From assembly GCF_030580955.1 (NCBI RefSeq), contig NZ_JAUQON010000002.1, forward strand, positions 372,001 through 436,000: a stretch of 64,000 nucleotides of DNA. Reading direction: 5' to 3'. This stretch comes from Hymenobacter convexus. Its GTDB lineage: Bacteria; Bacteroidota; Bacteroidia; Cytophagales; Hymenobacteraceae. Of this stretch, positions 2,534 through 54,443 are shown piece by piece. Numbering within the stretch: position 1 is the stretch's first letter; every line of letters starts with the position of its first letter. The translations under genes and the position numbers were made by a program. Under the pieces are notes generated by a model. The model was not told the DNA's origin. It saw only the letters and a program-made list of their open reading frames with translations, and made no database searches.

Positions 2534-3040
2534 TTAGAGGGGCTTCTTGTCGCCGGCTGTCAGTACATTGCCTTTGATGAGGATGGTGGTGATGTTGGGC
2601 TGGGTGTTGGCCCGCACGGCCACCTGCTTGCTGATGATGCCCTGCTTGCCGTGGCTATCGAACTGCACTTCCATCTTACCCTCGGCGCCGGGCGCGATGG
2701 GCTCTTTGGTCCAGCTGGGGGTGGTGCAGCCGCAGGAAGCTACGGCGTCCTCAATCAGCAGCGGCGACTTGCCGGTATTGGTGAAAGTGAAGGTGTGGCG
2801 GACTTTGCTATCGGGCTGAATATCACCAAAATCAAATTCAGACTCGGTAAATTTCATCACCGGAGCATTCGGGTTTGCGGCCTCGTTTTCGCTCACCACG
2901 TTGGGATTGTCTACGGTGGGGTTAGCGGCGTCGGAAGCTTCGGTAGCGGCGGCGTTCATGCCTTCAGTACCCACTTCGTTTTTGTCGCGGTTGCAGGCTG
3001 CCAGCAGGAGCGTGGCGGCCAGGAGAATCTGGTATTTCAT
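2534..3040 (-). CDS. DUF1573 lipoprotein
   Basis: A 168-residue exported protein. The leader ends in the lipobox LLAAC, so Cys16 is probably lipidated. A Glu/Asn/Ala-rich linker follows (about 18-60), then a DUF1573 domain with the hallmarks FDFGDIQPDSKVRHTFTFTN and SCGCTTPSWTKEPIAPGAEG (about 70-125). The domain is an Ig/ASH-like beta sandwich common in Bacteroidota; its exact role is unknown. DUF1573 next to yajC and nusB is a familiar order in this phylum. Confidence 0.9.
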   Translation of the reverse strand: MKYQILLAATLLLAACNRDKNEVGTEGMNAAATEASDAANPTVDNPNVVSENEAANPNAPVMKFTESEFDFGDIQPDSKVRHTFTFTNTGKSPLLIEDAVASCGCTTPSWTKEPIAPGAEGKMEVQFDSHGKQGIISKQVAVRANTQPNITTILIKGNVLTAGDKKPL

Positions 3041-3052
3041 AAGGGTATAGGT

Positions 3053-3132
3053 GTTTATCTGCTATCCTGAGCGCAGCGCATGACCTCATCAGGCAATAAG
3101 GTCCTGCGCTACGCTCAGGATGGCAGATAAAC
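3053..3132. repeat. Intergenic inverted repeat, TCCTGAGCGCAGCG type
   Basis: The arms GTTTATCTGC-ATCCTGAGCG and CGCTCAGGAT-GCAGATAAAC pair with few mismatches around a loop of about 40 bases. The core TCCTGAGCGCAGCG also begins the repeats at 36259-36362 and 50805-50899. It fills most of the gap between the DUF1573 and dehydrogenase genes. Confidence 0.75.
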
Positions 3133-3142
3133 GCTAAGCAAA

Positions 3143-4141
3143 TTACAATTTGTCGATGATGTGCTGGGCAAACTCGCTGGTGCTCGCCCGGCCGCCGAGG
3201 TCGCCGGTGCACTCTTCCTGACGCAGGAGGGTAGCTTCCAGGGCTTTGTCGATTTGGTCGGCCTTAGCGTGCTCGCCCAGGTGGTGTAGCATCATCAGGG
3301 CCGAGCGGAGCAGGGCGGTGGGGTTGGCTTTGCCCTGGCCGGCAATGTCGGGGGCGGAGCCGTGCACGGCTTCGAAAATGGCCATGTTGTCGCCGATATT
3401 AGCGCCGGCCACCACGCCCAGGCCGCCCACAAGGCCGGCGCAGAGGTCGGAGAGCAAATCGCCGAACAGGTTGGTGGTCACAATCACGTCGAACTGCTCG
3501 GGCTTGCCCACGAGTTGCATGCACATGTTGTCGATGATTTTATCTTCGAACACAATGCCGGGGAACTCCAGGCTGGCTTCTTTGCAGGCGTTGAGCATCA
3601 GCGTGCCGGCCATTTTGATGATGTTGGCTTTGTGGGCCAGCGTCACCTTTTTGCGGCCGTGCTTGGCGGCGTAGGCGAAGGCGGCGCGGCAGATTTTGCG
3701 CGAGCCCTCCACCGTGACGCGGGCAATGGCATCGGCAATGCCGAGGCGCTCGTCCCACAGCTCCAGGCCCGAGTACAAGCCTTCCGTGTTTTCGCGGAAC
3801 AGCACTAGGTCGATGCCCTCGTAACGGGTGTGAATGCCCGGCGTGGTCTTGCTGGGGCGCACGTTCTGGTAGAGGTCGTACTTCTGGCGCAGCGTCACGT
3901 TGATGCTGCGGAAGCCCTTGCCCACCGGCGTGGTAATTGGGCCTTTGAGGGCCACCTTATTCTTCTCCAGTGACTTGAGCAAGGCGTTCGGAATCAGCTC
4001 GCCCGACTGGTCGAACGTGGTCTGGCCGGCGTTCTGCTCTTCCCACTGCACGGGCACCTGCGCCGCGGCAAAAATATCGGTTACGGCTTTCGTGATTTCG
4101 GGGCCTATGCCGTCGCCGGGGATAAGGGTTACTACGTGCAT
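3143..4141 (-). CDS. Isocitrate/isopropylmalate dehydrogenase family (probable NAD-isocitrate dehydrogenase)
   Basis: A 332-residue beta-decarboxylating dehydrogenase, the length of short NAD-dependent isocitrate dehydrogenases. Visible family motifs are [14 protein letters not shown] at the N terminus, the substrate Arg/Ser segment [31 protein letters not shown], the catalytic Lys region [10 protein letters not shown], the metal-binding stretch [13 protein letters not shown] and the nucleotide segment [18 protein letters not shown]. It would convert isocitrate to 2-oxoglutarate; isopropylmalate or homoisocitrate cannot be excluded, but no leucine-synthesis genes are nearby. It sits between ytxH-like and DUF1573 genes on the same strand, flanked on both sides by inverted repeats, so it may have its own transcript. 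Confidence 0.88.
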
Positions 4142-5953: not shown

Positions 5954-6064
5954 AAAAGAACGTCATGCTGAGCACAGTCGAAGCATCTCTACTGCGCAAG
6001 TAATCAATGCTTTTGCAACGAAGCGGTAGAGATGCTTCGGCTCCGCTCAGCATGACGTTCTTTT
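5954..6064. repeat. Long inverted repeat, GTCATGCTGAGC type
   Basis: The left arm AAAAGAACGTCATGCTGAGC continues into AGTCGAAGCATCTCTAC and is mirrored by GTAGAGATGCTTCGG...GCTCAGCATGACGTTCTTTT. The right end overlaps the stop codon of the dehydrogenase at 6063 by two bases. The same element occurs at 7251-7344 and, more divergent, at 32471-32576. With A and T runs at its two ends it could also end transcription in either direction. Confidence 0.85.
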
Positions 6065-7154
6065 AATACGTCGACTTCACCCGGCCCACGCTGGCGATAC
6101 GCTCCTTGGCCTGCTTGATGGCGGCGGCCTGCGGGTGCGTGTGCTCCTCTTCGGCTTTCGCCAAAACCTGGAGGGTGAAATCGTAAATTTTTTCGGTTTG
6201 GGTGAGGGCGCCCTGGCGGCTGGCGCCGGTCACCTCAGAATACACGTTGATGAGGCCGCCGGCGTTGATAAGGAAGTCGGGGGCGTACACGATGCCGCGG
6301 CGCACGAGCTCGGGGCCATGCTGGTTTTCCACCTTCAGCTGGTTGTTGGCGCAGCCAGCCACTACCTGGCACTTCAGGCGCGAGATGGTGTCGTCGTTCA
6401 GCGTGGCGCCCAGCGCGCAGGGAGAGTAAATGTCCACGTCTTGGTCGTAGATGTCTTCCAGGCCCACGGCTTTGGCGCCGAAGCGGTTAGCGGCGTCCAA
6501 GGCGCGGTCTTCGTAGTAATCGGTCACGATGAGCTTGGCGCCTTCTTTCTGGAGGTGCTCCAGCAGGTAGGTGCCTACGTGGCCCACGCCCTGCACGGCA
6601 ATGCGCTTGCCAGTGAGGCTTTCCGAGCCGAATGCTTTTTTGGCGGCGGCTTTCATGCCCATGTACACGCCGTAGGCCGTCACCGGCGAGGGGTCGCCGG
6701 AGCCGCCCATGCTTTCGGGCAGGCCGGCCACGTGGGTGGTTTCCATGCGGATGTACTCCATGTCCTTGGTGGTCATGTTCACATCTTCGGCCGTGATGTA
6801 CTTGCCGTTCAGGTTCTTCACGAAGCGGCCGAACTTGCGCAGCAGGGCTTCGGTCTTCAGCGTTTTGGCGTCGCCGATGATGACGGCCTTGCCGCCGCCC
6901 AAGTTCAGGCCCGAGATGGCGGCCTTGTAGGTCATGCCGCGCGAGAGGCGGAGCACGTCGTTCAGCGCTTCCATGTCGGAAGCGTAGTGCCACATGCGGG
7001 TGCCGCCGAGCGCGGGCCCGAGCACGGTGTTGTGGATGCCGATAATGGCCTTGAGGCCCGTCTCGTGGTCGTTGCAAAACACGACTTGCTCGTGCTGGTG
7101 CTCGGCAATCTGACCGAAAATGGATTCAGGCGCCAGAATTTGGGTTTCAATCAT
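6063..7154 (-). CDS. Leu/Phe/Val-type amino-acid dehydrogenase
   Basis: A 363-residue NAD-dependent dehydrogenase close in length to leucine dehydrogenases. The two family lysines are visible twelve residues apart, Lys77 (GMTYKAAISG) and Lys89 (NLGGGKAVIIGD), the same spacing as in Bacillus leucine dehydrogenase. The C-terminal half is a Rossmann fold with VQGVGHVGTYL. It would reversibly deaminate branched-chain amino acids to 2-oxo acids and ammonia. It is separated from its neighbours by two copies of the same inverted repeat, so it is probably transcribed alone. A second member of the superfamily is cut by the left edge of the window. Confidence 0.92.
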   Translation of the reverse strand: MIETQILAPESIFGQIAEHQHEQVVFCNDHETGLKAIIGIHNTVLGPALGGTRMWHYASDMEALNDVLRLSRGMTYKAAISGLNLGGGKAVIIGDAKTLKTEALLRKFGRFVKNLNGKYITAEDVNMTTKDMEYIRMETTHVAGLPESMGGSGDPSPVTAYGVYMGMKAAAKKAFGSESLTGKRIAVQGVGHVGTYLLEHLQKEGAKLIVTDYYEDRALDAANRFGAKAVGLEDIYDQDVDIYSPCALGATLNDDTISRLKCQVVAGCANNQLKVENQHGPELVRRGIVYAPDFLINAGGLINVYSEVTGASRQGALTQTEKIYDFTLQVLAKAEEEHTHPQAAAIKQAKERIASVGRVKSTY

Positions 7155-7250: not shown

Positions 7251-7344
7251 AACGTCATGCTGAGCGGAGTCGAAGCATCTCTACCGCAGTACTAAAATCA
7301 TCTAGTTGTGCAGTAGGGATGCTTCGACTCCGTTCAGCATGACG
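7251..7344. repeat. Long inverted repeat, GTCATGCTGAGC type (second copy)
   Basis: The left arm AACGTCATGCTGAGCGGAGT and the rest GAAGCATCTCTACCGC are mirrored by GTAGGGATGCTTCGACTCCG...CAGCATGAC. It lies between the divergent dehydrogenase and ABC exporter genes, and creates a spurious in-frame extension ahead of the exporter. Confidence 0.85.
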
Positions 7345-12389: not shown

Positions 12390-12430
12390 AGAACGTCGTG
12401 TCGAGCGCAGCCGAGACATGACGTTCTTTT
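12390..12430. repeat. Short hairpin related to the GTCATG inverted repeats
   Basis: AAGAACGTCGTGTCGAGC pairs with the mirrored GCCGAGACATGACGTTCTT. It keeps the AAGAACGTC ends of the longer repeats but has almost no loop. It lies between convergent genes and can act as a terminator in both directions. Confidence 0.65.
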
Positions 12431-15639: not shown

Positions 15640-18600
15640 TTACCGCACAATCTCCACCCAGCCTTTCACCCGCTCGCCGCCATCAGCCCGGCTGAAAAGG
15701 TAGTAGTAGAGCCCGGCGGGCAGGCCCGCGCCGCCCCAGTCGTTGTGGTACTCGGGCACGTCGAACACCCGCTGGCCCCAGCGCGAAAACACCTGCAGCC
15801 GGCCCGGGCAGCCGCCCAGCCGCGGGGCGAAGAAGTCGTTCTGGCCGTCGTTGTTCGGGGTGATGATGTTGGGCAGAATGGCGGCCTGCACCTCCACCGG
15901 CGCCAGCGTCACCTGGTGCTGGCAGGGGCCGGGCGGGCCGCTGCCAGTGGGTAGCACGGCCCGGGGCGCGAAGCGGCCATCTGCCGCGTAGGTGTGCTCC
16001 ACGGTGGCGCCGGTGGCGGCGGGGCTGCCGTCGCCAAAGTCCCATTGCACCTGGCTGGCCGTGGGGCCGGCGGCGGTAAAGCGCAGGCGCAGCGGTGCCA
16101 CTAAATTGTCGGCGCAGTCCAGCGCCGCCCAGGTGGCCGTGAAACCCGGCGCGGCCGGAATGGTGATGCGGTAGGGTGCCGTGGTGCAGCCGCCGGGCAG
16201 CTCGTAGTACAGCTCCACGGTGCCTGCCGTGGTGGGCGGGGTGAAGAAGCCGCCGGCCGTCACGCCCGGGCCGCGCCAGGTGCCGCCCGCCGGCGAAGCG
16301 CGCAGCTGAAACGGCGCCTGGCTGTTGCACAGCGTGGTATCGGCTGGCACGCGTACGTTGGGCACCACGCTCACCACCACGGTTTGCGACACCACGATGG
16401 GGCAGCGCACTTCGGGAAAATCCCAGGTGTAGGTGAGGGTGTAGCGCCCGGGACCCACGTCGCCGGGGTTGAAGCGGTTGCCCACCACGCCCGGCCCGCC
16501 AAACGTGCCGCCCGCCGGCGAAGCCGAGAGCACCACCCCGTGCGGCGGTGCTGCCAGGCAGATGCTGACCGCCCCCACGGGCGCAAACAACACCAGCGGC
16601 AGGGCCAGCACCCGCACCCGCAGCTGTCCGGCGTAGGCGCAGCTGGTATCAGCCGGTGTGGGGCCGGTGTAGGCCAGCGTTTGCACCCCCGCCAGCGCTG
16701 CCGAAGGCGTGAACACAAAGCCCGAACTGACCGAGCCCGACACGCCCGGGCCCGTCCAGCGGCCACCGGCGGGGGTAGCGTTCAGGGCCTGGGGGCCGGC
16801 GATGGCGCATACCACGCTATCAGGCACGCTCAGGGTGGCCTGGCCGGCGGTGCGCACATTCACCACCCGGCGGGCGCGGCCGGGGCAAAGCGGCGTGTTG
16901 CCGGGTGGTCCGGTGTAGAGCAGGGACTGCGGCCCCGTCAGTAGGGGCGTCGGCGTGAAAGTGAAGCCCGTGGCCAGCGAGCCCGTCACGCCCGGCCCGC
17001 TCCATTCGCCGCCCGCCGGGGTGCCGCCCCGCAGCCGCATGGCGCCCGCTGAAAGGCAAAACGACGTATCGCGCGGCACCCGGGCCGTGGCCCCGATGGG
17101 CAGCACGACGACGCGCATGGTATCGGTGGCTGGGGAGCAGTCGAGGTCGCCCTGCAGAGAATATACCAGCAGGTGGGGCCCGCCAATCAGGGCTACGCTG
17201 GGCGTGAATACAAAGTGGTCGATAGAGCCCGACACGCCCGGCCCCGTCCAGATGCCGCCGGGCGGGCTGCTGATGAGTTGAATGGCAGGGTCGTTGGCGC
17301 ACACCGTGCGGGGCAGGCTGGGCGTGATGCGGGGCACGGTTTTCACCACCATCACCAATGAAGCCGTGACGGGGCAGCGCCCGCCCGCCACCTCATACAG
17401 CAGGCTGTGGTTGCCCCGCCCGGCCAGCATGGGGTCGAAAAGCGAAGTGCCCGGCACCACGCCCCGCCCGCTAAACACGCCCCCGGCCGGCGTGCCCGTG
17501 AGCTGCACCGGCGCCAGCGTGACGCCCGGCAGCAGGCAAAATACCTGGCGCGGCGCCGTAAGAGTGGCCGTAGCCTGGGGCAGCACCGTAATGCGCCGGG
17601 TGCTGGTGCCGGTGCAGCCGTTCACGGCCGCCGGGCTGGTGTAGGTGAGCACCTGCTGCCCCACCAGCGCCGCCGAAGGTGTGAAGAAAAAGCCATTGGC
17701 CAGCGTGCCCGATACGCCCGGCCCCGTCCAGGTGCCGCCCTCCGGCGAGCCGCTCAGCGGCACGGCATTGCCTCGCGCGCACACCGACAGCGTATCGGTG
17801 CCGGCCGGCGAGGTATTGGCCTGAAACGCAAACTTGAAAGCCGCATTGTTGCAATGCGGCGAGCCATTGGTGCTGGTGTAGGTGCCCGCGCCGGGCGGCA
17901 CTGGAATGCCCGTGCCGCCGCTTTGGTCGCAGGCGCACACGGCCTGGTAGAGCACGTTCTGGTTGTCGAAGCGCGACATGCCGCCGTCCACGTGGTCATC
18001 GGCGGTGGTGCCGAAGAAGGTGGCGTAGTCCAGCACCCGCGCGCCGTCGGAGAGCTGCATCAGGTAGAAGTCCACGCCGTCGGTGGCGCGCTGCAGGGCG
18101 TCGGGGGTGGTGGGCAAGCCGGTGGTGCTGCCGTTGTTGGGGTCGAGGCCGCCGCCCCAGCCAGCCAGGGCCATGCGCCCGTAGCAGTCCACGCCAAAGG
18201 CAGTGGGCGAAATGTCGGTAGTAGCGCGCCCGCTGCCAAACACCGTGGCGAAGCCCGCCGTGCGCAGATTGGGCTGCAGCTGCTGAATGAACTGCTGCCC
18301 GTGCGTCACGTGGTAGCGGGTGGTGTCCGCGCCCGGCCAGCTGGGCCCCAGCGTCTGGCCTAGCACGTACACCCGCCCGCCCGGCCCCGAGCGCACGAAA
18401 AATGCCTGGTCGTAGCCGCTCGTGCCTAGGTAAGTGGCTTGCGTGAGGGCACCCGCACTGGTAATACGCGCCACGAAGCCGTCCACGTTGCCGCCTAGGG
18501 CCGCCTGGTAGCCGTTGGCCGCCCCGCTCAGGGCCGCGCTGGTGGTGCCGCCGGCCACCAGCAGGTCGCCGCCCACGTCTTCGCGCTGCAAGGAGTACGC

Positions 18601-20091
18601 GGCATCGGCGCCAGCGCCGCCCACCAGCGTGGTCCAGCGCACCCGGTTCAGGCTGGAATCGAGGCTGGTGACGAGGCCATCGGAGCTGCCGCCGCGGTAG
18701 GCGCCGGCCGCCAGGCCGGGAAAATCAGCCGAGCCCGTCACGCTGGCCACGTACACGTTGCCCTGCGGGTCGAGAGCGAGGTCACCGCGAAAAGCGTCGC
18801 CGTAGTTGTGGCGCAGGCGGGGCGCGGCGGCGGCCGGGTCGAGCAGGCCGTCGGTGCCGGTGCCGCCCAGGTAGGTGCTGGCCCGCAGGCCGCCCCCGCT
18901 GGCGCTCAGCCGCGTCAGCACCAAATCAGACCCGCCGGTGAGCACAAAAGGCGAATTCAGCCCAAACGGCGCTACCGCCGGCCCGCCCCGCAGACTGTGG
19001 TTCAGGGCCGTGGTCGAGGTGGGATAGTCGGTGGAGGACGTGGTGCCTAGCAGCAGCAGTTCGTTACGCGCATTCACCAGCAGGCTGTGCGGAAACTCCA
19101 GGTTGTTGCCGCCCAGGTAGGTCGCCCAGGCCCGCGCCGTCGTTCCCGTAGCGCTGGCATTAAACTTCATAATGGCAATGTCGATGTTCCCGCTAAAAGT
19201 CGTCAGGTAAGCCCCCGAGGTGGTGGGGTATCCGGGCTCAAACACCACCCCGGCCGTGTAGAGGTTACCCCGCGCATCGTGCGTGGCCGCGAAGCCCCAG
19301 TTCTCCACCGCCGAGCCGGTATAAGAAGCAAACTGCACCGCTGGGTCGATGACGAGCGGGCGCTGCCGGTCGTAGGCGCCCAGGCGGAAGCTCACCGCCG
19401 TGCCCTGCAGCTCGAAGGCGCAGGCCACGGGCTGGGGCTGGCCGGTGGCGGGGTCGGTTTGCCAGGCACGGGGCGCCAGCTCCGTCAGCAGGCCAGCCGT
19501 GGTGCGCACTTCCAGGCGGCCGGTGGCGGGGTCGAGGCGCAGGGCATCGGCGCCGCGGTAGGTCCAGCGGGCCTGGGCGGGGTCGGCGCCGGGCGCCAGC
19601 AGCAGGTCGTATTCAAACTGCTGCGCGGTATTTTCCTTGAGCACCATGTCAATGCCGGGCCAGAGCTGGCGGTAGCGTAAGCCGTGCCAGGCGCGCACAT
19701 CATGCGCCCAGTGGCGGGCGTCGGCACCGCGCAGGTAGTGGCGCTGGCCGGGCGCGGCGGTTTCAGCAGCGGCTTCCAGCGTGGCTGTGGGAGAAGGGGC
19801 AATGAACTCCACGCGCAGGCCGTGGGCTTTGATTTGGCCGCCGGGCAGTCTGGCCGACTGGCTTTCTGCCTGCGGCCCGTGGCCCGGCAGGCCGGTGGTG
19901 AGGGCGTAGGTCAGCCCAGTGGCCTCCACAAACAGTCGCGCGCCGGGTGCTACCTGGGCGGCATAGCGCGCCCGGGCGTCCCATTGTCCCCGGTTTTCAA
20001 TAAACTCCAACGTGGGCCGGGCCTGCTGCCCGCGCACGGGCAAAGACAACAGCGCACCCCACAAAATGAGCAAGGTAAAAAGTAGACGCAT
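15640..20091 (-). CDS. Giant secreted protein with seven GPGV repeats, PKD domain and T9SS type B tail
   Basis: A 1483-residue protein with a signal peptide (MRLLFTLLILWGALLSLPVRGQ). It has an N-terminal DUF7948-like domain (LEFIENRGQWDARARYAAQV), then a propeller-like region with SBBP-type segments (ATYLGGTGTDG, TTLVGGAGADAAYSLQ; about 230-750). Seven units of about 80 residues follow, each with a Cys, the core PAGGxWxGPGVxG and a strand ending in LxYT. A PKD fold (QVQWDFGDGSPAATG) precedes the C-terminal gliding-motility-associated tail (NIITPNNDGQNDFF ... VFSRWGQRVFD ... WVEIVR). It should be exported by the type IX system and anchored on the surface; adhesion or gliding is inference. Confidence 0.9.
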   Translation of the reverse strand: MRLLFTLLILWGALLSLPVRGQQARPTLEFIENRGQWDARARYAAQVAPGARLFVEATGLTYALTTGLPGHGPQAESQSARLPGGQIKAHGLRVEFIAPSPTATLEAAAETAAPGQRHYLRGADARHWAHDVRAWHGLRYRQLWPGIDMVLKENTAQQFEYDLLLAPGADPAQARWTYRGADALRLDPATGRLEVRTTAGLLTELAPRAWQTDPATGQPQPVACAFELQGTAVSFRLGAYDRQRPLVIDPAVQFASYTGSAVENWGFAATHDARGNLYTAGVVFEPGYPTTSGAYLTTFSGNIDIAIMKFNASATGTTARAWATYLGGNNLEFPHSLLVNARNELLLLGTTSSTDYPTSTTALNHSLRGGPAVAPFGLNSPFVLTGGSDLVLTRLSASGGGLRASTYLGGTGTDGLLDPAAAAPRLRHNYGDAFRGDLALDPQGNVYVASVTGSADFPGLAAGAYRGGSSDGLVTSLDSSLNRVRWTTLVGGAGADAAYSLQREDVGGDLLVAGGTTSAALSGAANGYQAALGGNVDGFVARITSAGALTQATYLGTSGYDQAFFVRSGPGGRVYVLGQTLGPSWPGADTTRYHVTHGQQFIQQLQPNLRTAGFATVFGSGRATTDISPTAFGVDCYGRMALAGWGGGLDPNNGSTTGLPTTPDALQRATDGVDFYLMQLSDGARVLDYATFFGTTADDHVDGGMSRFDNQNVLYQAVCACDQSGGTGIPVPPGAGTYTSTNGSPHCNNAAFKFAFQANTSPAGTDTLSVCARGNAVPLSGSPEGGTWTGPGVSGTLANGFFFTPSAALVGQQVLTYTSPAAVNGCTGTSTRRITVLPQATATLTAPRQVFCLLPGVTLAPVQLTGTPAGGVFSGRGVVPGTSLFDPMLAGRGNHSLLYEVAGGRCPVTASLVMVVKTVPRITPSLPRTVCANDPAIQLISSPPGGIWTGPGVSGSIDHFVFTPSVALIGGPHLLVYSLQGDLDCSPATDTMRVVVLPIGATARVPRDTSFCLSAGAMRLRGGTPAGGEWSGPGVTGSLATGFTFTPTPLLTGPQSLLYTGPPGNTPLCPGRARRVVNVRTAGQATLSVPDSVVCAIAGPQALNATPAGGRWTGPGVSGSVSSGFVFTPSAALAGVQTLAYTGPTPADTSCAYAGQLRVRVLALPLVLFAPVGAVSICLAAPPHGVVLSASPAGGTFGGPGVVGNRFNPGDVGPGRYTLTYTWDFPEVRCPIVVSQTVVVSVVPNVRVPADTTLCNSQAPFQLRASPAGGTWRGPGVTAGGFFTPPTTAGTVELYYELPGGCTTAPYRITIPAAPGFTATWAALDCADNLVAPLRLRFTAAGPTASQVQWDFGDGSPAATGATVEHTYAADGRFAPRAVLPTGSGPPGPCQHQVTLAPVEVQAAILPNIITPNNDGQNDFFAPRLGGCPGRLQVFSRWGQRVFDVPEYHNDWGGAGLPAGLYYYLFSRADGGERVKGWVEIVR

Positions 20092-20238
20092 AAGCAATTC
20101 GGTGGAAGAAGGATAGCAGTAAAGCTAGACTGCAGCGCACAAAAACCATGCGCTGTTTCCGCTTTTCTTCTCCTTTATTTCCAGCGGCTTGCCACGGAGC
20201 GGTTTGATAACTCCGAACCCCAGCGCTGCGATGCCCGC

Positions 20239-20997
20239 CTATTCCGGCTCGGGCACCATGCCGTCCTCGTATTCCACCCGGCTCAGGAACAGGCCTCGGG
20301 CCGGGGCCGCGTTGCCGGCATCCACCCGCTTCTGGGCCCACAGCAGTGCCTGGAACTGGCGCGGCGTGAGCTTGCCGCGGCCCACATCAAGCAGCGTGCC
20401 CACCACCAGCCGCACCATGCCCCGCACAAAGCGGTTGGCCCGGATGTGGAACCGCCAGCCGCCCGGCGCGGGGTGCCAGCCGGCGGCCGTGCAGTAGCAC
20501 ACGTAGTGGTTTTCGCCGCCTTTTACTTTCGAAAACGTGGTGAAGTCGAACTGGCCCACCAGGTAGCCGGCGGCCTCGTTCATGGCCGCCACGTCGAGCG
20601 GCCGGTCCACGTACAGGGCGTGGTCGCGGCGGAAGGGGTCGGGCTGCGTCACCACGAAGTACTCGTAGTTGCGCTCCTCGGCCGAGAAACGGGCGTGGGC
20701 CTCGTCGGGCACGGGGTGCAGGCGCAGGGCGGCAATGTCGGGCGGCAGGGCGCGGCGCAGGCGGTAGAGCAGCTGGTCGAGCGAAAGCGTAGCGGGCAGC
20801 TCGGCATCGAAATGGGCCACCTGGTGGCTGGCGTGCACGCCGCTGTCGGTGCGGCCGCTGCCCAGGCAGTAGGTGGGGTGGCGCAGCACCTGGCTCAGGC
20901 AGCGGTCGAGCTCGGCCTGCACGGTGGGCATGCCCGGCTGAATCTGCCAGCCGCAGTAAGAAGTGCCGTCGTAGGCGAGGTGCAGGAAGTAGCGCAT
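20239..20997 (-). CDS. truA: tRNA pseudouridine(38-40) synthase
   Basis: A 252-residue enzyme that makes pseudouridine at positions 38-40 of tRNA anticodon arms. The catalytic aspartate is Asp51 in SGRTDSGVHASHQVAHFD. Other family motifs are LAYDGTSYCGWQIQP at the N terminus, EERNYEYFV and FIHIRANRFVRGMVRL-like sequence (FHIRANRFVRGMVRLVVGTL) near the C terminus. The ATG at 20997 was chosen; an earlier TTG in frame is less likely. It stands between two large secreted-protein genes without apparent functional link. Bases 20092-20238 upstream of the previous gene hold nothing recognisable. Confidence 0.95.
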   Translation of the reverse strand: MRYFLHLAYDGTSYCGWQIQPGMPTVQAELDRCLSQVLRHPTYCLGSGRTDSGVHASHQVAHFDAELPATLSLDQLLYRLRRALPPDIAALRLHPVPDEAHARFSAEERNYEYFVVTQPDPFRRDHALYVDRPLDVAAMNEAAGYLVGQFDFTTFSKVKGGENHYVCYCTAAGWHPAPGGWRFHIRANRFVRGMVRLVVGTLLDVGRGKLTPRQFQALLWAQKRVDAGNAAPARGLFLSRVEYEDGMVPEPE

Positions 20998-21040
20998 GAA
21001 ACGCAAAAGTACGGCCGGGACTAGCCAGTCGAACCAGCAC

Positions 21041-21076
21041 TAAAAAGCCCCCGCCGCCATTCAGGCAACGGGGGCT
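21041..21076 (-). terminator. Terminator after the LamG/Gly-rich secreted-protein gene
   Basis: Read leftwards, the stem AGCCCCCG/CGGGGGCT with a loop of about 16 bases is followed by TTTTTAG, 37 bases after the stop codon. Confidence 0.7.
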
Positions 21077-21112
21077 ACTCAGAGCCGGGTGCGGGCCGGC
21101 CAGCAGTTCGTT

Positions 21113-23659
21113 CTACTCCACCACCAGGCGCAGGGCCGGGGCAGTGCCGGCGCGCACCAAGTAGAGGCCGGCCGGTTGGCTGGCTGGCAGCGTGAGCGGG
21201 GCCATGCCCGCAGCATCAGTAATAGCGGTGAGCACGAGGCGGCCCAGGGCGTCGTACACCCGCACCGGGGTACTGGCTGCGGCCCCGCTGAGCGTGGTGG
21301 TGCGGGCGGCCGGGTTGGGGTACAGGGCCAGGCGGCCGCCACCTACGGCTACCGGACGCACCGGCGAGTAAGCGGCCGTGCCGTCGGTATCGACTTGGCG
21401 CAGGCGGTAGTACACGAGCGGGGCGGCGTAGCGGGTCAGGTCCGCGTCGCCAAACGTATAGGCGTGGGCCTGGGTGCTGCTGCCGGCCCCGGCCACCGTG
21501 CCCACGCGGGCAAAGGCGCGGCCGTCGGCACTGGCTTCTACCTCGAAGCGGGCGTTATTCAGCTCGGTGGCGGTGTGCCAGCGCAGCAGCGCGCCGGTGC
21601 CGGCGGCTTCGGCTGTGAAGGCCACCAGTTGCACGGGCAGCGGGGCCCCCACCGTGAACGTGGGCCCCTGGTAGGTGCTGAGCGTGGCCGAGGCGAGGCT
21701 CACCGGGCCGGTGGTGGTGCCGGTGGGCACGGTCACGGTGGTCGACAGGTCGTTGGTGGGGGTAGCGAAGGGGGCCACAGCCGTGCCGTTGAAGGCAAAG
21801 CTGGTCGCGTCGAGAAGGTTGGTGCCCGTGACGGTAACGGTGGCTCCCGGCTGGGCGCGGGCCGGCGAAATAGCCGTGATGGTGGGGAAGCTGCGCACGT
21901 AGTTGCTGGCCGTGCCGGTGAGGGCAAAGTTCGTGAGCGTGGCCGTGTTACCGTTGCTGCTCTGGTCGGTGAGGCCCGCCGCGCCCGCGTTGGCGCCGCC
22001 GGCCGTGCCCTGGTTGAAGGAGTAGTAGGCCAGCAGGCTGGCGGGCACGGCCGAAGTGGTGCTGTACATATCGGCCTGTATCTGCGCCCGGGTAAGGGCG
22101 GCGCTGTAGAGGCGCACCTCGTCGAAGCGGCCCGTGAAGAAGCGCTCGGGGGTGCCGTTGTTCAGCCAGGCCCCCAGGCTGACGGGCTGAGCGGCCACCG
22201 GCACCGCCGTGATAAAGTTGCTGCTCGACCGGACTGCCCCGTTGACGTAGATGATGGCCGACTTGGTGCTGGCCGAGTACACCACCGCCACGTGCGCCCA
22301 CTGCCCGATGGGCAGCGCCGACGTTAGCGGTAGCCCGTTGGAGTTGCCGCTCACGGTAAATTCCAGGCGGTTGTTTTGGTCGAACTGCAGGTACAGGGCC
22401 CCAGGGATGGCGTTGTCGCTCATCAGCAGGCTGGTGCGGCTGCCCGAGAGGGCCGCCTGGTTCACCCAGGCTTCGAGCGTAAACTCGCTGGTGGCGGGCA
22501 GGCCGGGGGTGTGCACGTAGTCGTTGGTGCCATCGAAGGACAGCGCGTTGTTGGTGGCCGTGCCCACCGTAAAGTACAGCCCGTTGCTGGTGCCGCTGGG
22601 CGTGCTCACGGTCACGTTGCCGCTGGTGGCCCCCGCGGGCACGGTGGCCGTGATGCTGGTGCTGCTGGCCACGGCAAAGGTGGTAGCGGCCGTGCCATTA
22701 AACCGCACCCCCGTCACCCCCGCCAGGCCAAAGCCCGTGAGCGTGACGGGGGTGCCCACCGGCCCAAAGGTGGGACTGAGGCGGGTGAGGGCCGCCACCG
22801 TGATGGTGAGCGTGCCGGGGCCGGCTGTAGCGGCCACGCCGTAGGCGGGGTTGCTGCCCGCCATCGCCCACGACGAGCCGCCTCCGCCGCCTGCGTAGTC
22901 GCTGTAGGTGGTGTTGCTGTAGCTGCTGCTGCCGCCGCCTCCATAGTAGCCGCCGCCCCCGCCGCCGCCAGAATAACCACCGACGTTGTTGCCGCCGGCA
23001 CCCCCGGTGCCGGCGCTGCCCGAATAAGCCCCGTTGGTACCGGCCCCCACTGCCGCCTGCGTAGCCCCCCGGCCGGGGCTGCCGCCGCCAGAATCACTGG
23101 CCCCATCGTTGCCGTTGGGTGTCCCGCCGTTGCCGCCGTTGGCGAGGCCGAAGGAACTGCCGCCGCCGCCGCCGGCCACCAGCAGCGCGTTGCGGCTGGC
23201 CAGGTAGTCGCCGGTGCTGGCACCGGTGCGCCGCAGGTCGGTGGCCCCGCCGCCGCCGCCGCCGCCGCCGTTGCTGCCACTACCGTCGTCGGTGCCGATG
23301 CCGCCGCCGTTGAAGCCGCCTGCGAACACGGTGCTGCCATTGGCATCGTTGGTGGTGCCCTGGCCGCCCACCCGCACCGTGAGCACCTCACCAGGCGTGA
23401 CGGCCACGGTGGCCTGCACCCGCCCCCCGTAAGAGTAGCTGGAGATGCTGGCGTCATAAAATAGCCCGCCGCTTGCCCCCGTGGCCACCACCCGCAGGCT
23501 GGTGACGCCGGCCGGCACGGTGTAGGTTTGAAGGCCGCCGGTGTAGCTGAAGGTGGTGGTTTGGGCCTGGGCCGCGCCGGCCGGGGCCAGTACCGCCAGC
23601 ACCGCCAGGGGGGCAATGGCCCGTCGCAGGCGGGGCAAAGAATAATAGAAGAACGTCAT
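21113..23659 (-). CDS. Secreted protein: Gly-rich region, IPT/TIG, LamG and T9SS type A tail
   Basis: A 848-residue protein with a signal peptide ending AGAAQAQ (about 33). Residues 40-290 contain a glycine-rich region with long GGGGGG runs (NGGGGGGGGATDLRRTG). Then come an IPT/TIG fold (LSPTFGPVGTPVTLTGFGLAGV, about 293-370), a LamG/concanavalin-like domain (LSFDGTNDYVHTPGLP ... FTLEAWVNQAAL ... GRFDEVRLYSAALTRAQI, about 370-570), a second IPT fold (ITAISPARAQPGATVTVTGTN) and a type A sorting tail (LALYPNPAARTTTLSG ... GLYLVRAG). It should be exported by the type IX system. LamG domains often bind carbohydrate; the ligand here is unknown. A striking palindrome lies 79 bases upstream of the start. 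Confidence 0.9.
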   Translation of the reverse strand: MTFFYYSLPRLRRAIAPLAVLAVLAPAGAAQAQTTTFSYTGGLQTYTVPAGVTSLRVVATGASGGLFYDASISSYSYGGRVQATVAVTPGEVLTVRVGGQGTTNDANGSTVFAGGFNGGGIGTDDGSGSNGGGGGGGGATDLRRTGASTGDYLASRNALLVAGGGGGSSFGLANGGNGGTPNGNDGASDSGGGSPGRGATQAAVGAGTNGAYSGSAGTGGAGGNNVGGYSGGGGGGGYYGGGGSSSYSNTTYSDYAGGGGGSSWAMAGSNPAYGVAATAGPGTLTITVAALTRLSPTFGPVGTPVTLTGFGLAGVTGVRFNGTAATTFAVASSTSITATVPAGATSGNVTVSTPSGTSNGLYFTVGTATNNALSFDGTNDYVHTPGLPATSEFTLEAWVNQAALSGSRTSLLMSDNAIPGALYLQFDQNNRLEFTVSGNSNGLPLTSALPIGQWAHVAVVYSASTKSAIIYVNGAVRSSSNFITAVPVAAQPVSLGAWLNNGTPERFFTGRFDEVRLYSAALTRAQIQADMYSTTSAVPASLLAYYSFNQGTAGGANAGAAGLTDQSSNGNTATLTNFALTGTASNYVRSFPTITAISPARAQPGATVTVTGTNLLDATSFAFNGTAVAPFATPTNDLSTTVTVPTGTTTGPVSLASATLSTYQGPTFTVGAPLPVQLVAFTAEAAGTGALLRWHTATELNNARFEVEASADGRAFARVGTVAGAGSSTQAHAYTFGDADLTRYAAPLVYYRLRQVDTDGTAAYSPVRPVAVGGGRLALYPNPAARTTTLSGAAASTPVRVYDALGRLVLTAITDAAGMAPLTLPASQPAGLYLVRAGTAPALRLVVE

Positions 23660-23737
23660 GAATAAAACAGGAAAAAATATAGGACTGCCGCACCCGTGCG
23701 CGTCCCTGCAAAGGACGGAGCCAGTACAAGGCGGCGG

Positions 23738-23757
23738 TATGACATGAACATGTCATA
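23738..23757. promoter_or_regulatory. Operator-like palindrome TATGACATG-aa-CATGTCATA
   Basis: Nine-base arms are exact reverse complements around a 2-base centre, 79 bases upstream of the secreted-protein start at 23659. The half-site TATGACATG recurs at 27590-27598, 77 bases ahead of another T9SS gene, and a related TGACA-N6-TGTTA site lies ahead of the one starting at 63882. It looks like the site of a dimeric regulator; which one is unknown. Confidence 0.5.
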
Positions 23758-23811
23758 TTTCGGCCCGCCGGCCCCTTCTTTTCCGGTGCTGTCCCGGGCC
23801 CTTCTGGCCGC

Positions 23812-23850
23812 AAAAAGCCCCCGCTGCCACGGGGGCAACGGGGGCTTCTG
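23812..23850 (-). terminator. Terminator after the PID-CTERM-like gene
   Basis: Read leftwards, GAAGCCCCCGTTGCC/GGCAGCGGGGGCTTTTTG forms a strong hairpin with a T-run, about 20 bases after the stop codon at 23869. Confidence 0.75.
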
Positions 23851-23868
23851 AGCCGATGCGAAGAGCCG

Positions 23869-24075
23869 CTAGCGGGCCAACCGGCGGCGTTGGCGGAGCT
23901 TTTTCAGGCCCAGGGCCACGCCGGAGGCGAGCAGTAGGGAGGCCCCGCCGTCGAGGGGCACGTCGGTGGTAGCGGCGGGCGTGCCGGGGGCCGGGCCACC
24001 GGTGCTGGGCCCCTGGGCCAGGGCCAGGGAGGAAGCCGCCGCGGTGAGGGCGGCGGCGAGAAACAGAGCTTTCAT
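23869..24075 (-). CDS. Small protein with PID-CTERM-like sorting signal
   Basis: A 68-residue protein: signal peptide (MKALFLAAALTAAASSLALAQ), a short Pro/Gly/Thr linker (22-38), then the motif VPLDGG (39-44), a hydrophobic stretch (ASLLLASGVALGL) and a basic tail (KKLRQRRRLAR). This tripartite end matches the PID-CTERM pattern of Bacteroidota (VPIDGG, hydrophobic helix, Lys/Arg-rich end), with Leu in place of Ile. Such tails are thought to be handled by sortase- or exosortase-like enzymes; none is in this window. The mature part is almost nothing, so the function is unknown. Its terminator lies just downstream and the next gene, also on this strand, is a T9SS cargo. Confidence 0.75.
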   Translation of the reverse strand: MKALFLAAALTAAASSLALAQGPSTGGPAPGTPAATTDVPLDGGASLLLASGVALGLKKLRQRRRLAR

Positions 24076-24091
24076 GGAGTGAAGGGAATAA

Positions 24092-24128
24092 GGGCGGGGC
24101 CGGCGCCTAGGAGCCGCCGGCCCCGCCG
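24092..24128 (-). terminator. Strong GC hairpin after the FG-GAP secreted-protein gene
   Basis: GCGGGGCCGGCGGC/GCGCCGGCCCCGCC pair nearly perfectly within the 66-base gap between two genes on the minus strand. There is no T-run, so its role as a terminator is likely but not certain. Confidence 0.55.
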
Positions 24129-24141
24129 TTGAAAAGAAGAT

Positions 24142-27100
24142 TTATTGCAGCACGACGCGCTTGGCCAGCACGACGGCACCCACGCGCAGGCGCAGGGTGT
24201 ACACGCCGACGGCCAGGCCTTGGGTCTCAAAGCCCAGGCGGGCGCCGGTGGCCGTGGCGGTGGCCGACTGCTGGCGCACCACCTGGCCCAGGGCGTTGAG
24301 CAAGGTGCCCTGCACCTGCGCGGCGCCAGCCACGGCGGGCACGAGCACGCTGAACTGGCCGTGGGCCGGATTGGGGTACACTGTCACCTCCGCCGCTGTG
24401 AGGGCGGTGGCCGTGGCCAGGGCCGCGCGGGCGGCGAAGTGCAAGGTGAAGCGGCCCGTGAGCAGCGCCTGGGCCTGAGCCGTCGTCACCGCGAACGAGT
24501 AGCCGGGCTGGGTGCGCAGGTTCACGGTCTGGCCGGTGGCGGCGTCGGTGAGCAGGGCGTCGAGGCCGGCGGGCAGGTTGTCGAGGGCGGCGGCAATGAG
24601 GGTGTAGGTGCCGGCGGCGGGCACGCCCACGTTCAGCGGCAGCGCGGTGGCGGCGGTGAAGGCCGGGCGGCCATCAATCGAGAGGGCCTCGCCGCTGGTG
24701 GCGGAGCTGCTCAGGTTCAGGCCGGTGGTGTTGGGCAGCTTCATGGCGTCGTACTGGGTATCGAAGGCCGGGGTGGCGCCGGCTTCGGCGTAGGCATACA
24801 GCGCATCGGCCGCGCCCGTGGCGCCGCGCAGCTCCAGCTGCACCAGCGGCCGGGGGTCGGTGGTGGTGCGCTGGAAGGCGGTGGCGTTGGGTGCGGTCAG
24901 GCGCTGGCTGTTGCGAAAGGTGAGCGTGCCGCTGGTCTGGCCGGCGCTCACGCGCACGAAGAAGCCCTGGCCCACGGGCAGCACGGAGTTGCCGCCGATG
25001 CCGTTGACGTAGCTGCGGTACTGGCCCGCGTACTGGGCCGTGCTGCTGTACACGTAGATGGCGCCGTCGAGGCCCGCCCGGTCGGCGGGAGCCACCAGCG
25101 AGTAGTCGAGCGGGGCCGGGTAGGGGTTGCCCAGCAGTTGCCAGCCGGCGTCGGCGTTGCCGGCCAGGCGGCTCAGGGTCTGGGCGACGGGCCCGTTGGT
25201 GAGCGTGCCGCTGAAGTCCACGAGCTGGGTGCCGGCGATGTTCACGGTGTAGCCTTGGCCGGGCACCAGCGGGTCGGCGGTGGTGCTGGGCGAGAAGAAG
25301 CCCCGGTCGAAAGCGGAGGAGCTGTTGGCCAGCGTCACGCGGCTCTGGTCGTAGCCGTACACGGTGGGGAAGGGCACCGTGGTGTTGGGCGTGGCCGAGG
25401 TGTTATAAGCGGGGTTCACCACGGGCGAGAAACCGGCCGTGGTCAGGTCGGCCACGGTAGCGTTGGCTACCGGCGAACTGTAGTGGCGGTAGCCGGGGCC
25501 GGGGTTCAGGCTCGGGTCGATGTAGCGCTGCACGGTGGCCGTGCCCTGCACCACGCCGCTGCTGCTGTTCACCACCAGGGCCGTGCCGGCGGCGCTGGAG
25601 GCCAGCGTGAGGGCATTGCCGCCCAGCACCAGATTGCCGGTGCCGCCCACGCCCAGGGCCACCGTAATGGTTACCGGGGCCGTCAGGCTCACGTTGCCGC
25701 TGGTGTTGATGGCCAGGTTGGCCACGGCACTCGGCAGGCTGCTGCCGGTGGCCGCCGCGGCGCCGGTGTAGCCGTAGCTGGCCAGCGAGGAATAGGAGCG
25801 GGTGCCCGTCACCTGCACCGCGCCGGTGCCGGTGGTGTTGCTGATGCCCGCCGCGTTGCAGATGCCCAGAATGCTGCCCGCCCCGAGCGAGAAGCTGCCC
25901 GCGCCACTGATAATGGCGCAGCCGTCGCTGAGGCCGCCGCCGGGCTGCACCGCGAAGAAGGCATTCACGCTCACGTTGCCGGCCAGCACGGCGTTGCCGC
26001 TGCCCGTGATGGTGATGGAATTGTAGATACCGGCCGGAATCACCGTCGGGCTCAGCTGCGTGCCGGTGCTCACCATCAGGTCAGGGTAAGTCACGGTGAA
26101 GGCCAGCCCGTTGCTGGTGCCGCTGGGGGTGGTCACGGTCACCGGGCCGGAGGTGGCGCCGGTGGGCACGGTGGCCGTCACGGTGGTCGCGTTCACCACG
26201 GCGAAGGTGGTGGCGGCCGTGCCGTTGAAGCGCACGCCCGTGGCCCCCGTCAGGCCGGTGCCGGTGAGGGTGATGCTGGTGCCCACCGCGCCGCTCGTGG
26301 GGTTGAGGCTGGTGAGGGTGAGGGCGGCGGCCGCCGTGGTGTTCAGCAACACGCTGGCATCGTTGGAGCTGTTGTTCACCGTCACAATGTCCAGCCGCCC
26401 GTCGTTGTTCACGTCGCCCAAAGCCCCGCCAATGGGGGTGTTGACGGCTCCGGCCGAGTAGTTGGTGATGGCGCCAAAGCTGCCGTTGCCCTGCCCCAAC
26501 AATACCCCCGCCGACCCCGCGGCCAGCACGGTCACAATGTCCAGCTGGCTGTCGCCGTTCACATCGCCGAGCACGGCTGCGGTCGGCATGCTGTTCGTAC
26601 CCGTCGAATAAGTGCCGGCCAGGGCCAATCCCCCACCGGCCTGCCCCAGCAATACGCCCACCGTATTCAGGGTTTCATGGTCGACCAACACATCGAGGCG
26701 GCCGTCGCCGTTCACGTCGCCCAGGGCCACCGTAGTAGGGCGGCTGAGGCCGTCCGAATAGCTGGCCACGGCCCCGAACCCCCCGCCGGCCTGGCCCAGC
26801 AGCACCCCCACCGTGCCTGGCAGGCTATTGCCGGTCACAATGTCGAGGCGGCCGTCGCCGTTCACGTCGCCCAGGGCCACGCCCACGGGCTGGCTGCCCA
26901 CCCCCGTGGAGTAAGTAGTCACGGCCGCGAAGCCGCCGCCGCCCAGCCCCAGCAGCACCCCCACGGAAGCCGTGAGGTTGTTGGCCACCACAATGTCGAG
27001 GCGGCCGTCGCCGTTCACGTCACCCAGCGCCACATAGGCGGGGGCGCTGTTGGGGCTGCTGCTGGTGCCGGTGGCGTACGTGACCACGGGGCTGAGGCCC

Positions 27101-27513: not shown

Positions 27514-27890
27514 GCGGGATAAAAAGAAGGTAGATAAATCAATGTCGCGCACCCGCGCGGCCCGGTAAAGTTCCGGTACCAACTCCGCATATGACATGAC
27601 GTAACCATGTTTATTTTCTATAGCCTCGGGCACTGCTGAGTCTGAAGCGTCGGGCTCTGGAGTCGGTGAGGACGGGCACGTTTCATTGCCGAGCCGGCCC
27701 CTAACGGTACCGACCAGCTTCACCACCGCGCCGCCGCCTACTTCCGCGTGGGCCTACTGCAAGCCCCGCCCCGGCCAAGTCCACGGACAAGACCCCCGCC
27801 TAGCCGCCCGGTGCCGCCTCACGTGCAAGCAAAAGCCCCTGCCGAACGTCCGGCAGGGGCTTTTTGCGGCACTCAGGCGGCGGGCCGGGG
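27514..27890. other. 377-base intergenic region between two FG-GAP protein genes
   Basis: It holds the half-site TATGACATG (27590-27598, followed by a partial mirror CATGT at 27606-27610), which probably belongs to the control region of the gene starting at 27513, and the terminator of the upstream gene at 27831-27866. The middle (27620-27830) shows no gene with support. Confidence 0.6.
27831..27866 (-). terminator. Terminator after the smaller FG-GAP protein gene
   Basis: AAAAGCCCCTGCCG/CGGCAGGGGCTTTTT forms a symmetrical stem with T/A runs, 24 bases after the stop codon at 27891. Confidence 0.85.
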
Positions 27891-29306: not shown

Positions 29307-29365
29307 GCGTGGAAGTGAAAAGGGTTTGGTTAAGTAGCGAAAGATACGCAGACGCATTAACGGCA

Positions 29366-32470: not shown

Positions 32471-32576
32471 CACGTCATGCTGAACGCAGTCGAAGTATCT
32501 CTACTGCTATAGTAATCCTTTCGGTTGGGATTAGTTGCGCGGTAGAGATGCTTCGACTACGCCCAGCATGACGTGT
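32471..32576. repeat. Long inverted repeat, GTCATGCTGA type (third copy)
   Basis: CACGTCATGCTGAACGCAGTCGAAGTATCTCTACTGC is mirrored by GCGGTAGAGATGCTTCGACT...CAGCATGACGTG. It lies between the DUF4476 and PorE-like genes and has diverged from the copies at 5954 and 7251 in its loop. Confidence 0.8.
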
Positions 32577-32607: not shown

Positions 32608-32650
32608 AAAAAAGAAGCCCCCGCAACCAAGGCTGCGGGGGCTTCTCAGG
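32608..32650 (-). terminator. Terminator after the PorE-like gene
   Basis: Read leftwards, GAAGCCCCCGCAGCC/GGTTGCGGGGGCTTC is followed by TTTTTT, about 19 bases after the stop codon. Confidence 0.85.
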
Positions 32651-36236: not shown

Positions 36237-36258
36237 ATAAGAATGGAACGACACGGTT

Positions 36259-36362
36259 GTCATCCTGAGCGCAGCGAAGGACCTTATCACGTCCGTGCTG
36301 CAATTGATTTACTAATTCAGACGAAAGCAGCGGTGATAAGATGCTTCCTTCGTCAGCATGAC
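36259..36362. repeat. Inverted repeat, GTCATCCTGAGCGCAGCGAAGGACCTT type
   Basis: The left arm continues to CTTATCAC and is mirrored by GTGATAAG...CTTCCTTCG...CAGCATGAC with several mismatches. It occupies most of the 135-base gap between two Fe-S protein genes, ending 9 bases before the stop at 36372. Confidence 0.8.
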
Positions 36363-37775: not shown

Positions 37776-37878
37776 GCGGTAAAGGTAAGGCGGGAACGTT
37801 TGGGGACGCAAGATACTCGGCATGCCGAGTGATTTTTAGAAAAAGACGCAGCATCCCACACTTTTTTTACTCGGTTTC

Positions 37879-50744: not shown

Positions 50745-50783
50745 CAAAAAACGCCGTTGGCCTCGTGCCAGCGGCGTTTTTGC
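50745..50783 (+). terminator. Terminator after the fasciclin gene
   Basis: AAAAAACGCCGTTGGC/GCCAGCGGCGTTTTT forms a stem with a T-run, 17 bases after the stop. Confidence 0.85.
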
Positions 50784-50804: not shown

Positions 50805-50899
50805 CTGTCATCCTGAGCGCAGCGAAGGACCTTGTCACGGCTGCACGGTTGGGAAATATCCAAACGTGATAAGGTCCTTCGCTGCGCTCAGGATGACAG
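50805..50899. repeat. Near-perfect inverted repeat, GTCATCCTGAGCGCAGCGAAGGACCTT type
   Basis: The arms of about 34 bases (CTGTCATCCTGAGCGCAGCG and on to CCTTGTCACG; mirrored by CGTGATAAGGTCCTTCGCTG to GGATGACAG) pair with one mismatch around a loop of about 27 bases. It is the best-preserved copy of this type in the window. It lies between the convergent fasciclin and J-domain genes. Confidence 0.9.
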
Positions 50900-54341: not shown

Positions 54342-54443
54342 AACGTCATGCAGAGCGCCGCGCAGCATCTCGCGTGTGGTGGCAACTCAATCTTTATTGA
54401 TTAGTGACGGCACGCGAGATGCTGCGCGGCGCTCTGCATGACG
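54342..54443. repeat. Perfect long inverted repeat, GTCATGCAGAGC type
   Basis: The arms AACGTCATGCAGAGCGCCGC continuing to GCAGCATCTCGCGTG (about 36 bases) are mirrored exactly at the right end, with a 30-base loop. It shares the GTCATG ends with the other elements but has a different inner sequence. It lies between the GGGP synthase and desaturase genes on the plus strand and would make a strong hairpin in the transcript. Confidence 0.9.

Follow-up and report, generated by a model that had tools for sequence, protein, structure and literature searches.

CGTC- and TGTC-tagged REP pairs of a Hymenobacter genome as probable REPIN-like elements behind genes

The closest described relatives of the repeats reported here belong to the CGTC superfamily of REPs (Di Nocera et al. 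2013, PMC3733652). In the part of that survey drawn on here, CGTC repeats are recorded in five phyla including Bacteroidetes and sorted into four families, and no dedicated transposase is assigned to them. They are described as consisting of an unpaired CGTC (or TGTC/CCTC) tag at one end, a stem of 8-9 bp starting with complementary AT, a loop of 4-5 nt and a short unpaired tail, which in most of them fits CCA. The repeats dRS3 of Neisseria as well as RPE-4 and RPE-6 of Rickettsia, which are members of other phyla, are named there as CGTC repeats, and Hymenobacter is not named in this part of the survey. Among the papers listed by word searches of an open-access library, none described CGTC repeats in Hymenobacter.

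The DNA analyzed (the window) is a stretch of 64,000 nucleotides (G000:C11:372001-436000) from a 5.98-Mb genome. The top named relatives of its ELFV (Glu/Leu/Phe/Val) dehydrogenase protein belong to Hymenobacter (Bacteroidota, Hymenobacteraceae) and show identities of up to 99%. A preliminary description had listed eight long hairpins in the window. All of them fold, six with energies of -55.8 to -86.7 kcal/mol, the hairpin at 36259 with -35.8 and that at 12390 with -20.2 kcal/mol, and all eight turned out to be head-to-head dimers of tagged hairpins of 27-28 nt, or remnants of such dimers. The sequence GTCATNCTGAGC, with at most one mismatch, matched the window 15 times compared to 0.71 expected matches and a maximum of four in 100 shuffles; two of the matches (30772 and 50671) lie inside coding sequence, so that they are not elements, and one more was found at 56232. 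When the window was searched with profile models built for the two main subtypes, each of the six full elements was recovered with its two halves at or near the coordinates given below, one half of 36259 only weakly. Both models missed 12390 and 54342, which belong to other subtypes. Apart from three tRNAs, Rfam gave no match in the window at the gathering threshold.

Type A dimers with CGTC tags are located at 5954..6064, with the outer arms AAAAGAAC/GTTCTTTT directly after the stop of the ELFV dehydrogenase gene (6063-7154, minus strand), at 7251..7344 in the divergent gap between the ELFV dehydrogenase (-) and an ABC transporter (+), identified by fold and profile, and at 32471..32576 in the co-directional gap 263, where the relatives G098, G077 and G070 lack the element. 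Type B is represented by a near-perfect TGTC dimer at 50805..50899 (fold, profile), which resides in the convergent gap between fasciclin (+) and DnaJ (-), and by a diverged CGTC/TGTC dimer at 3053..3132 (fold, profile), whose units 3064-3092 (+) and 3122-3096 (-) have a DUF1573 gene (2534-3040, -) on one side and, co-directional with it, an Iso_dh gene (3143-4141, -) on the other. The hairpin at 36259..36362, whose neighbours are genes of a Fer4 iron-sulphur protein (36372-37823, -) and of a CCG cysteine-rich-domain protein (35340-36263, -), proved to be a degenerate pair of a type B unit (50.7 bits) and a weak unit (8.2 bits); the relatives G070 and G077 harbor type A dimers in this gap (gap 265). 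A CGTC dimer of the GCA subtype folds at 54342..54443, 22 nt after a PcrB-family gene. The palindrome at 12390..12430 in a convergent gap had been taken for a shorter cousin of the family. It is instead a "solo" of the GTC subtype, a dimer with a deleted centre, since a full dimer exists at the same place in relatives (gap 253, G024), and likewise at another gap of this sort (292). Such solos resemble dimers whose central part was deleted between short direct repeats. The long minus-strand ORFs at 15640-29357 perhaps encode large surface proteins; several of them include repeats roughly 150 nt long (families D1-D3).

Each half unit comprises a GTC tag and a hairpin with the outer stem ATNNN/NNNAT (approximately 5 bp), GA mismatches and a GC-GNN-GC core, i.e., a 2-bp core with a 3-nt loop. 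This pairing is distinct from the pairing between the two halves of a dimer. The core may resemble the very stable GNA mini-hairpins of DNA. The tail is mostly CTC or CTT. The base before GTCAT is mostly C in type A (90 of 110 units) and T in type B (46 of 49), and the stem begins with AT/AT in 28 and with AT/AC in 15 of 45 hand-picked distinct units. In 262 units from seven genomes the triplet after GTCAT was GCT (158), CCT (48), GCA (28), GTC (7), GCC (7) or TGC (2). Hence, the two sub-types noticed at the outset both exist and are the commonest ones, but there are at least six in all. The complement of the triplet was present on the opposite side in 211 of the 261 units with a triplet at this place (GCT 151/158, CCT 46/48, GTC 6/7, GCC 5/7, TGC 2/2, ACT 1/4); for GCA it was found in 0/28, two of the three GCA bases being paired. 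With the 45 hand-picked units in a fixed register, 29 were complemented (shuffles: mean 11.3, maximum 22). Because hand-picking could introduce a bias, the count was repeated on all 91 distinct units, of which 60 had a complemented left triplet (5000 shuffles: mean 29.7, maximum 41). Without GCT units, 25 of 50 were complemented (mean 10.8, maximum 19).

The repeats are abundant. In the whole genome, GTCATNCTGARC gave 439 + 449 = 888 tags, its reversed control 1 + 4, and tags were detected in all 101 Hymenobacter genomes searched, 21-888 in each. A sample of 856 kb (C11:1-456000 and C10:1-400000), searched with the profile models of the two main subtypes, contained 213 units forming 93 head-to-head pairs (65 AA, 26 BB, 2 mixed) of 59-148 bp (median 93), and 27 unpaired matches. 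Among neighbours less than 300 nt apart, tail-to-tail pairs were absent and six pairs lay on the same strand; strict tag pairing gave 65 head-to-head, 0 tail-to-tail and 0 head-to-tail arrangements. Six of the 27 unpaired matches could stem from inverted dimers that lost their central part, as in 12390, and by eye no gene flanked by two single units, as expected of an autonomous partner, was noticed among them. Other inverted-repeat clusters in the C11 and C10 sample are GTAGAGACGCG...CGCGTCTCTAC (5), the CCCCTCTCCCTGAGGAGAGGGG type (6) and GTAGCGCGAACTTTGTAGTTCGCG (3).

The elements had been said to lie always between genes, which holds for 91 of the 93 dimers of the sample according to a home-made gene caller, a simple script that makes all placement counts approximate: 66 dimers are in co-directional, 15 in convergent and 10 in divergent gaps. 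The co-directional dimers follow the upstream stop at a median distance of 21 nt, 60 of 66 within 40 nt, and are crowded at 5-40 nt from the stop codon, as one would expect if they were conserved terminators or 3'-UTR hairpins whose sequence drifts and for which no mobility is required. The ends of type A point in the same direction. They are T-rich, with 5.7 T in sense and 5.3 T in antisense orientation out of 12 (47 co-directional cases; background 2.8), and continue outward mostly as GTTCTTTT (each position in 58-90 of 110 units), a continuation that type B does not have; at least one T-rich side was present in 51 of 65 type A dimers but in only 5 of 26 type B dimers, which speaks against terminators, as does the location of 10 of 91 dimers in divergent gaps. 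In co-directional gaps whose length without the element is 30-100 nt, a separate canonical terminator was rarer if an element was there (1/42) than if it was not (21/103, p=0.0045). The same was seen in convergent gaps, compared with no length matching (3/16 vs 25/43, p=0.009). Either the elements replace terminators or they insert where terminators are missing. In co-directional gaps of 100-300 nt, however, the difference fades (3/13 vs 41/129). Ordinary terminator-like hairpins that are separate from the elements adjoin both the type B element at 50805 (50746..50781) and the type A element at 32471 (32609..32649; GC-rich, minus strand, family D17), the latter hairpin being present also in relatives without the element. 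The hairpin at 32609-32649 is one of three that are GC-rich, terminator-like and 73-100% alike (AAAAAG...CCCCCGC...), the others residing at 21042-21082 and 23812-23852. As far as can be read from the DNA, the elements are not simply terminators, and the ends of type A resemble terminators on either strand.

To compare orthologous gaps, six relatives (G024, G098, G049, G077, G070, G082; mean flank identity 83-90%) were used for C11, and G024 and G077 for a replicate on C10, for which the hypothesis was fixed beforehand. Out of 111 orthologous observations at gaps with an own dimer, eight revealed the same subtype with a similar spacer and look clearly inherited. The same subtype with another spacer was seen in 17, another subtype in 21 (16 of them clear by eye), an unrelated repeat in 31 and none in 32, and two were too short. 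Conversely, 17 observations from 10 gaps show a dimer in the relative where our genome lacks one altogether (9) or has only a remnant, solo or degenerate (8). The missing elements and swapped subtypes in orthologous gaps indicate that the elements move, and thereby bear out the initial reading of them as REP-like, gene-free and mobile, which had called for a search for such empty sites. No target-site duplication, as a MITE of a DDE transposon would leave, was noticed by eye in the orthologous gaps, whose intergenic flanks are too diverged for such a reading. Near-identical copies are also dispersed: the two dimers most alike in the sample (C11:163258 and C11:165226, 99%) are inverted, 2 kb apart and have unrelated flanks. 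The best-matching spacers of different copies showed a median identity of 0.76 compared to 0.58 in shuffled spacers, and therefore whole dimers share ancestry. Dispersed copies and element-free orthologous gaps are not what drifting terminators would produce, and we regard this explanation as very unlikely. In our opinion, the whole is best explained by head-to-head pairs of CGTC/TGTC-tagged REPs constituting REPIN-like, gene-free elements that spread in trans and are tolerated or used behind genes, a reading to which we assign a probability of about 0.8. An enzyme that acts in trans, most likely a RAYT-type HUH transposase, would copy the whole dimer through a hairpin intermediate of single-stranded DNA. 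Copies behind genes would be kept because they are harmless or serve as 3'-end hairpins, and those of type A could terminate in both directions.

The preliminary description had set moving elements against conserved terminators. This alternative is not upheld, as the elements move and yet, compared to other gaps, theirs much more frequently contain a long hairpin in the relatives. In C11, orthologous gaps without a CGTC element contained another repeat (score at least 16) in 19 of 43 cases at own-dimer gaps but in only 14 of 346 at gaps that are repeat-free in our genome (p=3e-12); these rows include two terminator-like hairpins (gaps 263 and 277, G082), and gap 247 of G098 was reassigned to CGTC, the rule for calling a repeat CGTC being broader in the final comparison than in the first C11 pass. 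The C10 replicate gave 12/22 vs 9/129 (p=5e-7). By eye, its 12 cases comprised nine unrelated long repeats, two terminator-like hairpins (gaps 105 and 142, G077) and one CGTC derivative (gap 137, G024), with the control rows left uncleaned, and the repeat labelled CGTC in gap 177 of G024 is a low-complexity hairpin. Taken singly, every gap thus being counted once, G077 (p=2e-6), G024 (1e-5), G098 (1e-4) and G082 (6e-4) were significant, G049 (0.22) and G070 (0.13) were not; the relatives share kinship and are not mutually independent.

A rival explanation is that of neutral mobile elements in permissive gaps, which tolerate any insertion, recurrent hairpins then needing no function. In line with it, the density of elements was lowest in divergent gaps; measured against intergenic length the orientation differed from a chance distribution (p=0.0018), measured against the number of gaps it did not (p=0.24). 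Element-free gaps may lie within operons. On the other hand, the excess of unrelated repeats persisted in each length class. It was carried by co-directional gaps and was also seen in the convergent gaps of C11 (4/10 vs 3/33, p=0.04), though not significantly in those of C10 (1/3 vs 1/15, p=0.31) or in divergent gaps (p=0.14 and 0.18).

The site behind the dehydrogenase gene (6063-7154, -) was studied in 69 loci: that of our own genome, 67 others from Hymenobacter and one from Solirubrum. Of 80 loci collected from other genomes, nine of other genera, the Hymenobacter MAG L264, and L272 and L289 with a wrong stop were left out of this set. A repeat with a score of at least 14 followed the gene in 62 of 69 loci, 0-17 nt from the stop. 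By the same test, repeats were found upstream of the gene in 20 of 69 loci, and none inside the gene or after shuffling. Nine of the sites hold CGTC dimers, and three of the seven scoreless loci contain degenerate dimers by eye; L226, labelled CGTC, is actually not CGTC. Most hairpins at this site are low-complexity palindromes (GAATTATGAGTTATGAATTATGAGTT or GTGATTTAGTGATTTAGTGACTTAGTGAG with inverted copies), whose sequences differ widely between species (L210-L289). In the sample of our own genome most palindromes of this sort occur once, and one cluster has two members. The arm of the hairpin at this site gave 1, 1, 2 and 3 matches in 200 kb in four relatives, so some may be repeated. On the dehydrogenase gene tree the CGTC label changed 11 times compared to 11.2-11.3 times for shuffled labels, and thus there is no sign of CGTC inheritance at this scale. 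A hairpin slot is likely kept behind the dehydrogenase gene. Its occupation in most loci by hairpins of many sequences, close to the stop, is in line with 3'-end hairpins and argues against purely neutral elements. A counter-example is the PcrB-family site (54342), where a score-14 hairpin was present in 10 of 30 loci, some of them plain terminators. The slot is therefore no general rule, and this site, which resembles plain gain and loss, favours neutrality and, with the hairpin missing from 20 loci, also disfavours conserved terminators. All in all, the data hint that some genes keep a 3'-end hairpin whatever its sequence, and a wholly neutral origin of the pattern appears possible to us but is not the reading that we would favour.

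The window had been reported to contain no transposase, and this was extended: none was found among 19 scanned window ORFs adjoining elements, and PF01797 was without a match in the 64 kb. The search for a REP-type transposase, as had been suggested, succeeded in part, since the genome contains two RAYT genes, although neither is flanked by these repeats. Their NF047646 scores are 82 bits (over the cut-off) and 55 bits (under it), and for either gene the alignment includes NHVH, WQ and the Tyr region. The gene of L001 (L001:1346-2122) is surrounded on both sides by GTAGCGCGGACTTTTAGTCCGCG inverted repeats, the largest cluster among the other repeats of the 856-kb sample, and represents an ordinary GTAG-type REPtron. 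L002 (C10:398611-399162), which would be the best candidate for the copying enzyme, is a divergent RAYT that kept NHVH, WQ and the Tyr region and has no flanking repeats; a PDB sequence search with its protein gave no match at E 0.01. Approximately 130 nt upstream of the L002 gene there is a perfect hairpin with a 10-bp stem (L002:2125-2152; GCAGCAGCGCAAAGCGTAGCGCTGCTGC on the strand of the gene). This hairpin is reminiscent of the repeat core and may serve as a binding site.

Of the 32 Y1 loci inspected, 30 being the best PF01797 matches in the genus and two our own, not one was abutted by CGTC units, and a check for the TGC subtype was also negative; most of the 30 belong to types other than L002, the L002-type flanks seen being those of our own genome's gene. 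Two of the 30 have a unit pair within 1.5 kb which does not adjoin the gene. As a test for RAYT, PF01797 was rejected, leaving 28 of 101 genomes unmatched, including G072 (721 tags) and G049 (673). NF047646 matched in all but 11 of the 101 genomes. Because it finds more RAYT genes than PF01797, it cannot be concluded that no Y1 gene is needed.

A counterpart of L002 (at least 50% identity) occurs in 66 of 101 genomes including our own, once per genome and broken in a few. The median tag number was 295 in these 66 genomes and 127 in the 35 without it (p=2.8e-7, AUC 0.81); the L001 type showed no link to the tag number (p=0.33). Genomes with any NF047646 match had a median of 267 tags, those with none 83 (p=1.2e-4). 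In PGLS on the gene tree with 48 genomes, from which the doubtful genome links L254, L232 and L244 were left out, the L002 type was associated with 1.5-fold tag numbers (p=0.0505) and L001 was not (p=0.90). Independent pairs pointed in the same direction (2.8 vs 0.4 of 8) without being significant. Exceptions are G067, which has an L002-type gene and 21 tags, and G057 with no such gene and 437 tags.

A sample of 296 genomes was taken from the phylum. In it, the nine that belong to the same order but lie outside the genus have 1-7 tags, and scattered distant genomes have 253 (G102), 252 (G306), 224 (G105), 135 (G374), 125 (G339), 123 (G176), 118 (G372) and 104 (G211). The tag pattern covers only some subtypes, and therefore repeat-poor genomes may hold others. 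Among genomes hand-picked from this sample, NF047646 matched in 9 of 12 repeat-rich ones (one match being a fragment) and in 12 of 18 repeat-poor ones; the repeat-rich genomes without a match are G102, G105 and G341 (86 tags). Given the weak tree-corrected link and this failure outside the genus, the L002-type RAYT is a plausible candidate for the mobiliser of CGTC repeats and no more than that.

Spread could also be transposase-free, one palindrome passing its sequence to another through ectopic gene conversion or template switching. The repeat-rich genomes lacking a RAYT match would agree with such a process, and so would the finding that the arms within one element are more alike (0.93) than those of different elements (0.84) and that one pair of copies has a common spacer and differing arm cores. 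At the dehydrogenase gene, though, the CGTC dimers start 0 to 17 nt from the stop, varying by species, which is not as expected of conversion in place. We consider this route unlikely.

The main reading can be taken further. Some genes may possess a selected 3'-end hairpin slot whose sequence is exchanged wholesale between species, either from mobile CGTC REP dimers or from low-complexity palindromes made locally, the CGTC repeats being moved in trans by an unlinked RAYT. This combined proposal is put forward tentatively and is rather improbable in all its parts. If unrelated hairpins are interchangeable behind the same genes, mobile repeats may be recruited as ready-made gene ends. The 2013 survey left the mover of the CGTC repeats open, and Hymenobacter, owing to its range of tag numbers and their association with one RAYT type, makes this question testable. 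Two leads are offered: a candidate for the mobiliser, and unrelated hairpins that replace one another behind the same gene.

Compared to the CGTC REPs, as presented in the part of the survey considered (PMC3733652), the Hymenobacter repeats share the CGTC/TGTC tag, a hairpin that starts with AT (complemented by AT in 28 of 45 hand-picked units), the predominance of head-to-head dimers, the rarity of clusters, the location near 3' ends of genes and the lack of a flanking transposase gene. They differ by the tail, mostly CTC/CTT instead of CCA, and by the 2-bp stem and 3-nt loop between GA mismatches. By their fit to a published superfamily the elements are of a kind already known; our account adds a genus from which, in the literature searched, they have not been described. 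The double-foot REPs could stem from inverted dimers without their central part, like 12390; in the section of PMC6006769 concerned they carry GT[AG]G tags (subclass 2.4). With the Pseudomonas REPINs, as far as characterized in the portion of Bertels and Rainey (2011, PMC3116915) used here, our elements have in common the inverted REP doublets with a spacer, the extragenic location, the many copies and a RAYT in the genome. REPINs of Pseudomonas are tagged by GTAG and lie near specific RAYT genes; the elements of our Hymenobacter genome are tagged by CGTC or TGTC, and neither of its RAYT genes is flanked by their units.
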